Source: Thermococcus celericrescens
GTDB lineage: Archaea; Methanobacteriota_B; Thermococci; Thermococcales; Thermococcaceae
Direction: 5' to 3'
Length of the DNA: 42,160 bases
NCBI RefSeq assembly: GCF_001484195.1
Contig: NZ_LLYW01000031.1
Coordinates: forward strand, 1 to 42,160
The notes under the pieces were generated by a model. It searched no databases. It had not been told where the DNA came from and saw only the letters and a program-made list of their open reading frames with translations. Positions within the stretch are counted from its first letter, which is position 1, and the number at the start of each line of letters is the position of its first letter. The translations under genes and the position numbers were made by a program. Below, one piece after another: positions 32,955 through 42,160 of this stretch.

Positions 32955-33881
32955 ATGGAGAGATGGAGAATAGTCCGCGCCTTCACCCTCGGTTCGCTCC
33001 TCGAGGCCGCGGTTCCGAAACCGGGCAACGTGAGCCGCCTCAGGGACTTCGACGACCTTACCTTCTACCACTTCCTCTTCGCCGACACAGCCGTCACAGG
33101 GGTTTACTACGAGGCCGTGAAGACGGCGGAGCTTCTGAGGAAGGGCATCCTCGAGCCCCGGGAAGCGGGACTCGGGGAGCTGATAAAGCGGGCGGTTCAG
33201 GCATCGCGCGAGGCCCAGGACGCCAACCCCAACTTCGGGGTCGTGGCCCTCTCGCTTCCCCTCATCATGGGGATGACGATGGGGATGAACATGCTCGATG
33301 CAAGGAAAAAGGCGAGGCTGCTGATAGAGGAATCAACCGTCAGGGACACGATGGAGTTCTACCGGGCGATAAGGATAGCCAACCCCAAGGGAATTCCCAG
33401 CGGCGTCAAGTACGACGTTTATTCCGACGATTCCTTCAGGGAGCTTTTCCAGGACGGGATCAACCTCGCCAGGCTCGCCGAGATAAGCTGCGGGCGCGAG
33501 CTGATATTCTGCGAGTGGCTCAAGGAATACGAGCTGAGCTACTCCACCTTCGGAAGGCTCTACGAGCTGATAAAAGAGCTTCCGCTGGATGAGGCTGTGC
33601 TCAGGGCTTTTCTTGAGCTTTTGGCTGCCAATATGGACACGCTGATAGCCAGAAAGGCCGGCCTTGAGGAGGCTAAGCTCGTTCGGGAAAACGCCGGGAA
33701 AGTTCTCGCCGGGGAACTCAGCGTTGAGGAGTTCGATGCCTTTATGCGCGAGAGGGGCGACCTGAGAAACCCGGGCAGCCTGGCGGACGTCATGGCAGTA
33801 TCGCTCAGCCTGCTCGTTCTCAGGGGATTGAGGATAGAATTGAGAAACGGAAGGGTCTGGGGAGTTATAGGACGACCTTGA
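32955..33881 (+). CDS. CitG/MdcB-family protein (triphosphoribosyl-dephospho-CoA synthase-like)
   Basis: A 308-aa protein of the family that makes the prosthetic-group precursor 2'-(5''-triphosphoribosyl)-3'-dephospho-CoA for citrate or malonate enzymes. It has the family motif LEAAVPKPGNVSRLRDF, DANPNFGVVALSLPL and a C-terminal helix region with NPGSLADVMAVSLSLL. No citrate lyase or malonate decarboxylase genes are near, so a different product is likely in Thermococcales. The start ATG directly follows the stop of the small membrane gene. Its end overlaps the convergent DUF1884 gene by 17 bp. Confidence 0.82.
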   Translation: MERWRIVRAFTLGSLLEAAVPKPGNVSRLRDFDDLTFYHFLFADTAVTGVYYEAVKTAELLRKGILEPREAGLGELIKRAVQASREAQDANPNFGVVALSLPLIMGMTMGMNMLDARKKARLLIEESTVRDTMEFYRAIRIANPKGIPSGVKYDVYSDDSFRELFQDGINLARLAEISCGRELIFCEWLKEYELSYSTFGRLYELIKELPLDEAVLRAFLELLAANMDTLIARKAGLEEAKLVRENAGKVLAGELSVEEFDAFMRERGDLRNPGSLADVMAVSLSLLVLRGLRIELRNGRVWGVIGRP

Positions 33882-34146
33882 AGCGCTTTGCCCCGCCCAG
33901 ACCGAGGCCCAGCGCCTTGCTGTCAATGACGACGGCGTCGCCGCCGAGTTCGTCGAGCATGCGTATCTTTAGACCGGAGAGCTCGAAAACCTCCTCCTCG
34001 TCGCCGAACTCCTCGTTTATCTGCGCCTTTATGAACTCGTAGGCCTCTTTTCCTAGAAGGACCACGTCTGGCTCGTATCCGTCGAGCTTCAGCTCGTTTG
34101 CCTTCTCCTCCGCGGTGCTCAGAACACGGATCAGGTCGCCTCTCAT
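33865..34146 (-). CDS. DUF1884 (PF08967) protein, A-domain (family 4) encapsulin group
   Basis: A 93-aa protein that reads as the orthologue of P. furiosus PF0899: MRGDLIRVLSTAEEKANELK, then GYEPDVVLLGKEAYEFI, and the conserved end LDELGGDAVVIDSKALGLG. This family was grouped with encapsulins as the isolated A-domain of the HK97 capsid fold in a large computational survey, with metabolic enzymes as proposed cargo. Here the neighbours are a convergent CitG homologue and an unrelated secreted-protein gene, so no cargo enzyme is next to it. Family membership is strong; assembly into a shell is not shown by sequence. The start is ATG 34146 with GGTGT upstream. Confidence 0.82.
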   Translation of the reverse strand: MRGDLIRVLSTAEEKANELKLDGYEPDVVLLGKEAYEFIKAQINEEFGDEEEVFELSGLKIRMLDELGGDAVVIDSKALGLGLGGAKRFKVVL

Positions 34147-34194: not shown

Positions 34195-35049
34195 CTAACT
34201 TTCACCGGGACCGTTCTCCTCGACGGCGGTGAACGCTTTCACGTAGGCCTTCACGATGTCCTCGTCGCCCATTAGCATTAGAATCCTCGCCAGGTTCATT
34301 CTCCTTACCTCGGCGAACTCCACGTACAGGTACTCGTCACCCCTGCGGTAGAGCTTAGCAGAGACGCCCAGCAGAATGTCCCCCTTGAGAGGTTTCATCT
34401 CTGAAACCTCCCGAAAGCCCGCGTCCCTTATTCTTTCCTCGGTTGCCCTTATCACGTTCTCCAGACTGCAGTTGCACGTTCCGTTGAACCACTTGGGTAC
34501 AGGCGGGTGGCCGCAGACCTTTTCGAAGTCCGTCTCGTTGCCGCATAACAGGTACTCCCAGAGGTGCCATCTCCCCTCGCCCGTTGGAATGAGGTAGTAG
34601 GCTATTCTGACTTCTCCCGCCGGCACGCTGTCCCGGTGGGAGCTTTGGGATATGATTCCACACCTTGGTTCGCTGGAGTTTTCGCACTTCCAATTTAGCA
34701 TTCCAGTGTGCCAGGTGCTTCCTCTGCCGTTGAGCGTTACCTGGACCTCGCTTTTCTGTATTGCACACGGGGGGAAGATTCCCCTTTCCGTTGCCCAGGG
34801 GACTATCCTCATAGTCCCGTTTCCCTCAGCGGGCCATACCCCGGGCATTTCGGAGAATATCAGGATCGAACCGTTTTCTAGGTACCTCTCAACGTGACCT
34901 CCCTGTATTCCGGGAACGTACTTTACCGGGCTCGTGAGCGAGCAGTGATAATCTGAATTGGAGCTTTCGTCCTGCGTTAGCTTCCACGCCACCACTGCCA
35001 GGGTGAGCATCAAAAACAAGAGGAGGAACGCCCCCCGACTACCTTTCAA
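34195..35049 (-). CDS. Secreted/anchored Cys-rich protein, paralogue of the gene at 40626
   Basis: A 284-aa protein with an N-terminal membrane anchor (GAFLLLFLMLTLAVVAWKL) and several cysteines (HCSL, PPCAIQ, WKCENSSEPRCG, GTCNCSLE) fit for disulfides outside the cell. The C-terminal part LYRRGDEYLYVEFAEVRRMN and on is nearly identical to that of the 40626 protein, and the middle also aligns loosely (AYYLIPTGEG against AYYVVPTKEG). Function unknown. The start is TTG 35047-35049 with GGAGG about ten bases upstream. A promoter and a strong inverted repeat lie upstream (35073-35097). Confidence 0.72.
   Translation of the reverse strand: MKGSRGAFLLLFLMLTLAVVAWKLTQDESSNSDYHCSLTSPVKYVPGIQGGHVERYLENGSILIFSEMPGVWPAEGNGTMRIVPWATERGIFPPCAIQKSEVQVTLNGRGSTWHTGMLNWKCENSSEPRCGIISQSSHRDSVPAGEVRIAYYLIPTGEGRWHLWEYLLCGNETDFEKVCGHPPVPKWFNGTCNCSLENVIRATEERIRDAGFREVSEMKPLKGDILLGVSAKLYRRGDEYLYVEFAEVRRMNLARILMLMGDEDIVKAYVKAFTAVEENGPGES
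34259..34350. repeat. 92-bp block identical to 40678-40769
   Basis: The block covers the last conserved part of the coding sequence (YRRGDEYLYVEFAEVRRMNL to MLMGDE). It is base-for-base identical with 40678-40769 in the paralogue 6.4 kb away, while flanking sequence differs strongly. This is the pattern of recent gene conversion or strong nucleotide-level constraint. Confidence 0.9.
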
Positions 35050-35072
35050 TCACATCGCCTCCGATTGATAAT

Positions 35073-35097
35073 GGACATGCGTAATCTTGGCATGTCC
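35073..35097. promoter_or_regulatory. 8-bp perfect inverted repeat upstream of the 34195-35049 gene
   Basis: GGACATGC-GTAATCTTG-GCATGTCC. It lies 24-48 bp upstream of the TTG start, downstream of a TATA-like element (minus strand TTAAATAATCC, about 35128-35139). It may be an operator or a 5' UTR hairpin. Confidence 0.55.
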
Positions 35098-35221
35098 CAA
35101 GTGGGAATTGCATTACAAAATATGCCACTGGATTATTTAACTCTTTCTACCATCAAAAGTGAAAACCTAGCCAAAATCAAGTTATAAAAATTTAGGTCTC
35201 AAACAATAAAATCGTGAAACG

Positions 35222-35863
35222 TTAAAGCCCGAACGCCCCCTTGATGCCGTTGATTATCATCTGAACGGCCATCGAGGTCAGTATCAGACCCATCATTCTC
35301 GTCATGACCTTTATTCCCACCCTTCCGAGCTTCTTTTGTATCCCGTTCGAGGAGCAGAGGATCAGCCAGACGGTCAGGCCTATCGCGAGAATGCTCGCTA
35401 TCACTGTCGCCTTTTCCGGAACGCCGTGGCTCTTCGCCATGTAGAGCATCACGGTTGTTATCGCACCCGGGCCGGAGATTAGGGGTATGGCGAGCGGGAT
35501 TATGGCAACCTCCTCCAGCGTAACCACTTCCTCGCTGAACTCTTCCGTCTCCTCTTTGCTTATCTTGACCGTCGAGAGCCGGCCCGAGAGCATGTCCATT
35601 GCCATCTTGAAGAGGAGTATGCCGCCCGCTATGGCGAAGGCATCGATGCTCGAGCCGAAGAACTTGAATATCCACTCCCCTATGAGTGCGAAGACGACGA
35701 GGGTCACGATAACCGTGGTGGCGGTTTTTTGTGCTATCTCCCGTCTCTGGCTCCAGGAAAGGTCGTGGGTGACCCCGAGGAAGACTGGAACCGCTCCGAC
35801 CGGGTTCGTTATCGCGAACAGTCCGCCGTAGAGTATGACGAAGTACTTCAGGTACTCGAGCAA
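35222..35863 (-). CDS. MarC/SnatA-family transporter
   Basis: A 213-aa membrane protein with six helices and the MarC pattern ITNPVGAVPVFLG near the start and IPLAIPLISGPGAITTVM in the middle. A Thermococcus member (SnatA) was shown to carry small neutral amino acids with sodium, so amino-acid transport is the best guess. The start is TTG 35863, since GGGTGG lies just upstream and the protein then begins LEYLKYFVILYGG as in homologues; longer frames upstream are GC-rich read-through. T-rich sequence after the stop probably ends the transcript. Confidence 0.86.
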   Translation of the reverse strand: MLEYLKYFVILYGGLFAITNPVGAVPVFLGVTHDLSWSQRREIAQKTATTVIVTLVVFALIGEWIFKFFGSSIDAFAIAGGILLFKMAMDMLSGRLSTVKISKEETEEFSEEVVTLEEVAIIPLAIPLISGPGAITTVMLYMAKSHGVPEKATVIASILAIGLTVWLILCSSNGIQKKLGRVGIKVMTRMMGLILTSMAVQMIINGIKGAFGL

Positions 35864-35903
35864 GCTACCACCCTTCCGGGCCGGAGAAGAGGGGGTTAAA
35901 AAG

Positions 35904-36320
35904 TTAATCCTTCCCCCCGCGGATAATCTCGAAGGAGTACGTGACCTCAGCACCGCTCAGTTTAACGTGTGCGCTGGCCGAGCAGTATTTGTCCTGGCTC
36001 AGCTCTATCGCGCGCCTGGCCTTCTCCTCCTTCACGTCGCCGTATATCCTGTAGTGGAGGTGGATTTTCCGGTATATCTTCGGGTGCTCCTCCCTCCTCT
36101 CGCCGCTGATCTCGACCTCCAGCCCTTCGATCGGCTCGCGCATCTTCTGGAGAATCATGACGACGTCGTAGGCGGTGCAGCCGGCAACGCTCAGAAGGAG
36201 GAGCTTCATGGGGCTTATCCCGCCCTCCCCAAGTATGACGGAGCATTTGTCGCTCTCCACCCTGCCGATGAACTGATAGTCCTTGAACCACTCAACCTTT
36301 CCCTTCACAGGTTCGGTCAT
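35904..36320 (-). CDS. OsmC-family protein
   Basis: A 138-aa OsmC/Ohr-like protein. The first Cys is in LSVAGCTAYDVVMIL and the second in DKYCSASAH, the thiol pair used by this family to reduce peroxides. Between them is the typical EGLEVEISGERREEHPKIYRK strand region. Likely a cytosolic thiol peroxidase, though several archaeal members have no tested function. I choose ATG 36320 after GGTGAT; ATG 36326 and a TTG at 36347 are in frame. It is divergent from the radical SAM gene at 36380, and both promoters share about 60 bp. Confidence 0.86.
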   Translation of the reverse strand: MTEPVKGKVEWFKDYQFIGRVESDKCSVILGEGGISPMKLLLLSVAGCTAYDVVMILQKMREPIEGLEVEISGERREEHPKIYRKIHLHYRIYGDVKEEKARRAIELSQDKYCSASAHVKLSGAEVTYSFEIIRGGKD

Positions 36321-39573: not shown

Positions 39574-40566
<993 letters not shown>

Positions 40567-40625: not shown

Positions 40626-41468
40626 TTAACCCTCGATGCTTCCCGCGGTGAAGGCTTCCGCGTAGGCCTTCACGACTTCCTCGTCGCCCATTAGCATTAG
40701 AATCCTCGCCAGGTTCATTCTCCTTACCTCGGCGAACTCCACGTACAGGTACTCGTCACCCCTGCGGTAAAGGGTTGCCTTTAACGGTACGAGATGCTCA
40801 TTGCCACCAGATATATCCCACAAAGAGACGTGTACAAATCCTGCTGACTTTACGGCATCATCGACCTTGGCCATTAGTGTTTCAATTGAACATGTGCACC
40901 CCACTTTAACGTCTTCGAACTTCACAGGGCCGCCCCACGCTATTGACTTGTAAACCCTAAATTCCCCTTCTTTGGTTGGAACAACATAGTAAGCGAAGTA
41001 CACTTTGCCGGCGGGGGCCGGGGAGCTTTTTAGTTCCTGTGGGGTCACTTCACGCGGTTCGTTGCAGTCCACATGGTTGAGTACGGGCCACAGGAGTACG
41101 TATCCCGGTTCCATAAGCTCGACAAGCCCGCTTTGTCCCTGGAGCACACAGGGGGGTTTGATGCCCAGTTCCTCGGTCCAGTTGCTCTCTTCCGTGAATA
41201 TCTGGAGGCCTCCCTGGGGTGGGGTTTCGTTTATCACCATTCCCCTCAGGTACATCTCTGCGAAATGCACGGCCGTTCCGTTTTGGTTGTACTCGACGAT
41301 GTCCATTCCATCGTCCGCGAACATAACGTGAACTGCCGGACACTCGATTTTTGTCTCTGACTTCTCCAGAAGACAGCTTTTTTGACCCCGTTCCTCTCTT
41401 GCAAAATAAAAAAGCAACAAGATGATGAGGAATCCAGTAGAGAAAAGAACCAAGAGTTTAGATCTCAT
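40626..41468 (-). CDS. Secreted/anchored protein, paralogue of the gene at 34195
   Basis: A 280-aa protein with an N-terminal membrane anchor (LLVLFSTGFLIILLLFYFA), cysteines in the outer part (KSCLLEK, IECPAV, PPCVLQ, GCTCSIE), and the C-terminal LYRRGDEYLYVEFAEVRRMN shared with the paralogue. Function unknown. The ATG at 41466-41468 overlaps the stop of the gene upstream (TAATG) and GGAGGTG lies in that gene's last codons, so both are translated together. The 5' half is more AT-rich than the 3' end, which contains the identical 92-bp block. Confidence 0.72.
   Translation of the reverse strand: MRSKLLVLFSTGFLIILLLFYFAREERGQKSCLLEKSETKIECPAVHVMFADDGMDIVEYNQNGTAVHFAEMYLRGMVINETPPQGGLQIFTEESNWTEELGIKPPCVLQGQSGLVELMEPGYVLLWPVLNHVDCNEPREVTPQELKSSPAPAGKVYFAYYVVPTKEGEFRVYKSIAWGGPVKFEDVKVGCTCSIETLMAKVDDAVKSAGFVHVSLWDISGGNEHLVPLKATLYRRGDEYLYVEFAEVRRMNLARILMLMGDEEVVKAYAEAFTAGSIEG
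40678..40769. repeat. 92-bp block identical to 34259-34350
   Basis: Second copy of the block shared by the two secreted-protein paralogues, in the same orientation and the same reading frame. Confidence 0.9.
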
Positions 41469-42160
41469 TAAGGCACCTCCGGTACTGATTGCGGAGTTGG
41501 GCACTCTTCTCCTGAATCGCACATTTGTATTGGAGTTATGGTGACTACCCATGCAGAGACCATGTTCCCGACATCAAAAAGTATCCACGCGTAATACCCT
41601 ATTACCATAGAACCTGCAATGGGAGCACAACCGTCCCATTTAGCCCATGGGTCTATTGTTGGTCCTACGTTAGATGGATATTGCCAGGATCCATTACCAA
41701 GATCCGTTTCGGTCCACGCAGGGACGTCATAGATTATCTTCTCGGACGTTATGGTTGCCAGTGGGATAATTGGATATCCCGTTTTTGTAATTGTGAATAG
41801 TGTGGATTCTGTTGACCTCCATTCGTCTTGGTTTTTATTTACTTTGGCTTCTGGAGGAAGTTCGTATTTTTCTGGTTTTCTGTATTCCCTGCCCTTCATG
41901 TCCACAATCTTGTCTCCAGTTAAAATGCCGTAGTTCAGTCCGCTGAAGTATGCGGGGCGGTAGGTTTTTACTCCTTTTCTCGTGGCGAGTTCTTTCATTA
42001 GGTCGCTTGGGGTCTTCTCGCCAAAGCCTGCCTCCAGGATTGCCGGTGGTAGGTTCCTGTTGGCTGACACTATTATGTAGCCTATGGTTTTTCCATTCTT
42101 GACCATTCTGAATTCGTAAGCTGCTAATCTACCGTCGGGGAAGTAGAGGGGTGTTGGGTT
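41468..42160 (-). CDS. C39/C10-like cysteine peptidase domain protein, N-terminus outside window
   Basis: The frame is open to the window edge, so only the C-terminal 230 residues are seen. The first part (PDGRLAAYEFRMVKNGK, then IGYIIVSANRNLPPAILE) resembles the Spi/PepSY-like propeptide of streptopain-type and C39-like peptidases. Later WDGCAPIAGSMVIGYYAW matches the nucleophile helix of C39_2/C10 peptidases, with its Cys. The protein ends only about 45 residues further on (ECPTPQSVPEVP), and no plausible catalytic His follows. So it is a shortened or inactive peptidase-like protein, possibly an exported partner of the co-translated gene at 40626. AT-rich. Confidence 0.62.
   Translation of the reverse strand, partial: NPTPLYFPDGRLAAYEFRMVKNGKTIGYIIVSANRNLPPAILEAGFGEKTPSDLMKELATRKGVKTYRPAYFSGLNYGILTGDKIVDMKGREYRKPEKYELPPEAKVNKNQDEWRSTESTLFTITKTGYPIIPLATITSEKIIYDVPAWTETDLGNGSWQYPSNVGPTIDPWAKWDGCAPIAGSMVIGYYAWILFDVGNMVSAWVVTITPIQMCDSGEECPTPQSVPEVP

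Follow-up and report, generated by a model that had tools for sequence, protein, structure and literature searches.

We report that a 92-bp block identical between two otherwise diverged secreted-protein genes, here called A and B, very probably records a recent short-tract gene conversion among secreted-protein paralogs, likeliest from A at site 1 into B at site 2 (probability of about 0.87). The block seems to be one instance of a larger genus-wide pattern in which gene bodies, apparently together with a neighboring protease gene, are swapped among three sites.

A 92-bp block identical in two diverged genes

The window (the whole stretch of DNA analyzed, 42,160 nt) is contig C31 of genome G000, an assembly of 73 contigs and 2.34 Mb. 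The following features are used below.

34195..35049, minus strand: gene A, secreted-protein paralog at site 1 (open reading frame, start TTG; site from synteny)
40626..41468, minus strand: gene B, secreted-protein paralog at site 2 (open reading frame and synteny)
34259..34350, minus strand: 92-bp constant block, A copy (YRRGDEYLYVEFAEVRRMNLARILMLMGDE; string comparison and repeat search)
40678..40769, minus strand: 92-bp constant block, B copy, equal to the A copy and replaced relative to the G034 ortholog
34360..35133, minus strand: body cassette of A, with no DNA match to the G034 site-1 gene, whose flanks match on both sides; similar limits against G031
40770..41468, minus strand: body of B, orthologous to that at site 2 of G034 and related to that at site 2 of G037

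An earlier note on this DNA had claimed that 34259-34350 and 40678-40769 agree at every base while the remainder of the two genes is barely alignable. String comparison over the 92 bp confirms the first statement, and a DNA identity of 40.6% between the gene bodies bears out the second. Both copies are coding, on the minus strand and in the same frame, and they lie within a 128-nt direct repeat (34226-34353 and 40645-40772, 95% identical, 6419 bp apart) with abrupt edges. The ATG start of B, picked by eye (GGAGGTG, then TAATG), overlaps the stop codon of a C39-like peptidase open reading frame (TAATG).

Genome G000 encodes three members of the family: A, B, and one on contig C11. The family is present in 25 of the 101 genomes searched, all 25 of a single genus, presumably Thermococcus, and the C-terminal protein segment encoded by the block is conserved throughout. 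In a DNA search of the 101 genomes, the best match to the block outside G000 was 82% over 128 nt, and outside the family there were only short, weak matches that we take as chance. Neither A nor B matched a Pfam family at E values up to 1, their NCBIfam and PADLOC matches were all sub-threshold, and sequence searches found no relative of solved structure. A P-type family member had no match in plasmid and phage collections, which may omit near relatives.

Evidence for a probable gene conversion into B

The clearest evidence comes from the ortholog of B in G034. On the 5′ side of the block the two genes agree at 618 of 677 positions, but within it at only 68 of 92 (Fisher p 6.7e-6, block versus 5′ part); similarity then resumes, with 34/34 matches 3′ of the block and 64/66 in the last part of the following gene. 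Synonymous divergence follows the same course: dS is 0.285 for the body and 0.18-0.21 for two neighboring genes, against about 2.3 for the block. Since the block is diverged while both sides are close, it must have been replaced in at least one of the two genes. Between A and B the situation is reversed: identity in the block, silent sites included, is far above that of its flanks. The 22 bases directly 5′ of the block match G034 at only 12/22 positions, so the 5′ boundary of the tract is blurred.

The body tree, a quick tree that raised long-branch warnings, rejects a clade of A and B (AU p 1e-4); in it, B falls together with the site-2 genes of G034 and G037. On the block alone (90 columns), AU tests reject neither the grouping of window A and B with G034 B (p 0.137) nor that of G034 B with G037 B (p 0.147). 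The block of G034 B is itself 93-96% identical to site-1 genes whereas the bodies are 41-42% identical, and the G034 lineage therefore probably underwent an exchange of its own; the G037 relative of B carries yet another, P-like C-terminus. Taken together, the G034 comparison, the exact identity and the dS values lend good support to the earlier proposal of gene conversion over 6.4 kb between A and B, with A-to-B as the simplest direction. Visible recent conversion is uncommon in the family, exact runs of at least 40 bp being found in only 6 of 47 diverged within-genome pairs, as against 22 of 1197 between-genome pairs.

Other origins of the identity

The A block differs from the blocks of the site-1 relatives in G031, G034, G013 and G004, so that a third source may have supplied both genes, and A-to-B is no more than the likeliest direction of transfer. 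Such a donor, an unsampled strain or species giving the block to A and B separately, would also fit the best outside match among the 101 genomes being as low as 82% over 128 nt. We nevertheless consider this improbable: it requires two events, both recent enough to leave exact identity, where one copy from A to B is enough.

An assembly artifact, with the 92-bp repeat collapsed or misjoined, is very unlikely. The assembly is indeed fragmented, contigs C31 and C61 terminate within a repeat in the C39-like gene, and on contig C11 the upstream flank of site 2 is linked with the downstream flank of site 3; against this, A has site-1 flanks on both sides, B combines a G034-like body with a site-2 tail, and a collapse is unable to turn a 74% match into 100%.

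A nucleic-acid signal had also been put forward as a cause of the identity, with conserved silent sites across homologs as the mark of constraint. We found the opposite: among 103 ortholog-like pairs, third-position conservation is 0.787 in the block and 0.804 in the body (pair counts refer to the 55 of 63 aligned members with both body and block), and across 1197 between-genome pairs with bodies less than 50% identical the block third positions agree at 52.7% on average. As the silent sites of the block vary among relatives and are no more conserved than those of the body, the signal is unsupported, and we rejected it on third positions and dS. That the block was kept as a protein or nucleic-acid signal with no exchange at all is hardly credible, for although the encoded C-terminal segment is conserved across the family, silent sites are free to vary, the probability that 30/30 codons match given the same amino acids is 1.7e-9 (codon usage of eight window genes), and the B orthologs differ far more at silent sites in the block than in the body; in its strict form the idea is refuted by the silent sites.

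Bodies are replaced at three syntenic sites

Downstream flanks place the family members at three syntenic sites, represented in 12, 15 and 15 genomes, with an additional group of three and one singleton. In the window, sites 1 and 2 are marked by the following genes.

33865..34146, minus strand: family 4A encapsulin gene, downstream marker of site 1 (NCBIfam)
35222..35953, minus strand: gene that we take to be marC-like, upstream marker of site 1 (synteny)
39592..40566, plus strand: presumably a ribose-1,5-bisphosphate isomerase-like gene, marker of site 2, adjoining B (synteny)

The first of these, a 93-aa gene directly downstream of A, scores 161.9 bits against the NCBIfam model for family 4A encapsulin shell proteins, for which the cut-off is 90.

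Genes at one site keep their tails and 3′ flanks even where their bodies differ. Over the 80 nt that follow the stop codon, mean identity is 0.71 between genes at the same site with different bodies (n=199) and 0.53 between genes at different sites with the same body (n=40), compared with 0.73 when site and body are both the same (n=55) and 0.54 when neither is (n=487); these values cover 41 of the 42 genes of the three site clusters, with one 64-aa fragment excluded, and leave out pairs whose bodies are 50-70% identical in protein or too short to score. Gene A and the site-1 gene of G034 illustrate the pattern, with 88% identity over 316 bp in the upstream flank and 92% over 516 bp across the 3′ end and downstream flank, and no DNA match in between. 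Several body types are found at two sites each. On a tree of flanking genes for 19 genomes (G005, G040 and G057 left out), body type changes at least 4, 9 and 5 times at sites 1, 2 and 3, counts to be read in light of the possibility that flanking genes recombine too and of some weak forks. Body types were coded by hand from the tree, with one copy per site, that adjoining the 3′ flank, and with types K and K′ merged, as was an S group.

Bodies within a type are under purifying selection (omega about 0.1-0.4), which argues that body variation arises by replacement and not by drift; positive selection within types was not seen in these values. The earlier suggestion that variable N-terminal parts are shuffled on a constant C-terminus matches the genus-wide pattern. 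That conversion serves this end is conjecture; it could simply be a side effect of the homology that members share.

Several junctions in relatives fall at the 3′ block. Besides the probable block exchange in G034, the site-3 gene of G000 has a body matching the first tandem gene of G013 (96.8% over 1428 nt) and a tail matching the second (90% over 499 nt), with dS against G013 of 0.03 in the body and 1.26 in the block; this tail switch is what a deletion between direct-repeat blocks would give. Site 1 offers a further case: where G013 has two tandem genes, G031 has a single one, whose body is that of the first and whose tail is that of the second. At site 2 of G004 and G018, a remnant of a C39-like gene of a type otherwise found at site 3 (G000, G013) lies beside the matching body. 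Fusions of two family members into a single reading frame occur in three genomes (L070:2877-4529, L089:1550-3253 and L090:1265-2896; 551, 568 and 544 aa); that of G026 is at site 2, and those of G004 and G018 are at site 3.

A second constant block in the upstream C39-like gene

41468..42160, minus strand: C39-like peptidase open reading frame, running off the contig end with most of the catalytic domain missing (family from Pfam on relatives)
41873..42160, minus strand: the constant, N-terminal portion of the C39-like gene; all 288 bp match G000:C11:38677-38964

A C39-like gene lies upstream of B and of family members at 14 other loci. Two of four full-length relatives score above the 24-bit gathering cut-off for Peptidase_C39_2 (PF13529; L083 24.5, L102 28.7), while L086 falls below it (18.7 bits), L079 has no match, and the partial open reading frame in the window has no PF13529 match. 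In these genes the N-terminal half is constant and the catalytic half variable, and the catalytic half co-varies with the body that follows it (14 loci, Mantel r 0.95, p 0.0002, in a test that ignores kinship and in which some near-identical pairs come from near relatives). The truncated gene of the window was left out of this test, and the fused gene of G026 was entered by its N half. The C39-like genes share two traits with polymorphic toxins: a constant N-terminal part followed by a catalytic C-terminus that varies, and, within the same Mantel test, a neighbor that varies with type. The upstream gene also supplies a second constant block, which the earlier note does not mention.

This second block, too, is exact within G000: the window and C11 copies are identical over at least 288 bp, whereas 53 between-genome pairs have a mean identity of 0.849 and a maximum of 0.955. 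The window copy also agrees exactly with 181 bp at the end of contig C61, which in turn shares an exact 331 bp with C11; should C61 and C31 adjoin, the exact repeat would measure 438 bp. In G046, the other genome with two copies compared, these are 0.899 identical, so exact identity between copies is not the rule. Contigs C31 and C61 both end within the exact repeat, which C11 spans. The flank upstream of site 3 is on C61, whereas C11 has the upstream flank of site 2 on one side and the downstream flank of site 3 on the other. Either a true crossover within the C39 constant part or a chimeric assembly would account for C11. It seems that the variable unit comprises the peptidase catalytic half and the partner body, set between two homogenized constant blocks.

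Ordinary homologous recombination could make these exchanges. The block is often the one stretch with sufficient DNA identity between members, so recombination would be expected to fall there, and each conversion would in turn restore the identity of the block between members. The N-terminal half of the C39-like gene would provide a second homology arm upstream, through which the peptidase catalytic half and the partner body could be exchanged as one two-gene cassette.

More distant C39-like homologs, with 35-43% identity, occur at G034:C1:1144721 and G001:C1:903430 and in G007, G022, G030 and G035; no member of the partner family was detected anywhere in the last four genomes.

Possible functions of the peptidase-partner pair

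The pair might constitute a toxin and its immunity protein, a protease with an inhibitor or chaperone, or a system of surface variation. We tentatively consider a polymorphic conflict system, in which the C39-like protein would be a secreted toxin-like peptidase and the partner its cognate immunity protein, inhibitor or chaperone. Discrete types under purifying selection and the co-variation of peptidase and partner types fit this idea. Partners outnumber intact peptidase genes at the loci examined. They also occur singly or as tandem copies, and in G000, G004, G018, G012 and G037 they adjoin remnants of decayed peptidase genes. Orphan immunity genes are found in such settings, and these orphan partners are consistent with an immunity-like role.

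Predicted structures point loosely in the same direction. The models, built from five-row alignments and with pLDDT 70 for A and 63 for B, weakly resemble the EagT6/SciW/DcrB/PsbP/Mog1 group and, again weakly, Tli4. For a Mog1/PsbP/DUF1795-like fold, Foldseek gave probabilities of 0.97-0.98 with E values of 0.11 and 0.0057 on these models, and the VIA Z of the A model was at most 7.8, the tool's caution line being 8. In the A model, the block would form the strands leading into the final helix of a Mog1/PsbP-like domain. The toxin is putative; the fold matches are weak even at their best, and no PADLOC match was better than E 0.04.

It is equally conceivable, though again doubtful, that these are fast-turnover surface or secreted proteins varying for virus escape or substrate fit, with the peptidase as a processing enzyme. 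N-terminal hydrophobic segments (signal or anchor, seen by eye in the open reading frames), conserved cysteines and wholesale replacement of alleles favor this possibility, but positive selection within types was not seen, and surface variation alone does not explain the matched peptidase types. A tentative picture that joins the conflict proposal to the exchanges is a Thermococcus two-gene polymorphic conflict system, whose cassette of C39 catalytic half and body may move among three sites by homologous recombination between two arms kept by conversion, the 92-bp block on the right and the C39 N-terminal half on the left.

The uncharacterized peptidase-partner pair is a candidate conflict system, and the arrangement offers a concrete, testable way for an archaeon to reassort variable secreted proteins: junctions can be placed within a short constant block, the three syntenic sites act as controls, and Thermococcus includes genetically tractable species.

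Relation to known systems

The nearest published system in kind is VARTIG, a hypervariable Ig-domain module of Thermococcales that its authors liken to polymorphic toxin systems (PMC8416519), although the protein families differ. Both concern secreted proteins of Thermococcales whose genes are mosaic through recombination, but in VARTIG it is the C-terminal Ig domain of a large protein that varies (PMC8416519), whereas the A/B family varies the N-terminal body on a constant C-terminus. A VARTIG module would also have a large multi-Ig protein (arCOG07710) upstream. As described there, VARTIG exchange takes place between species and not between loci of one genome, as seen here within G000, and its recombination sites and mechanism are unclear according to its authors; a text search of that paper found no mention of C39 or peptidase (PMC8416519), while the A/B partner is C39-like. 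By description, arCOG10027, arCOG10028 and arCOG10066 are also similar, as Thermococcus-specific secreted paralogs in variable clusters near a peptidase, for which inter-microbial conflict has been suggested; the peptidase of those clusters is a zincin metallopeptidase with an Ig fold, and that of the A/B family is C39-like (PMC4158269). General variability data are also available (PMC9425974). In our searches of open-access full text we found no description of the C39-like/partner pair.

Polymorphic toxin-immunity systems combine a constant part with a variable catalytic part and have a variable neighbor that also occurs as orphan copies. The C39-partner pair, as a putative toxin and immunity protein, resembles them in all of these features and differs in that the C-terminus of the neighbor is constant too, leaving constant blocks on both sides. 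Short-tract gene conversion between paralogs leaves exact tracts with abrupt edges in diverged genes; the A/B block is very probably such a conversion, unusual only in that exchange recurs there and that entire bodies are switched at this block as well.
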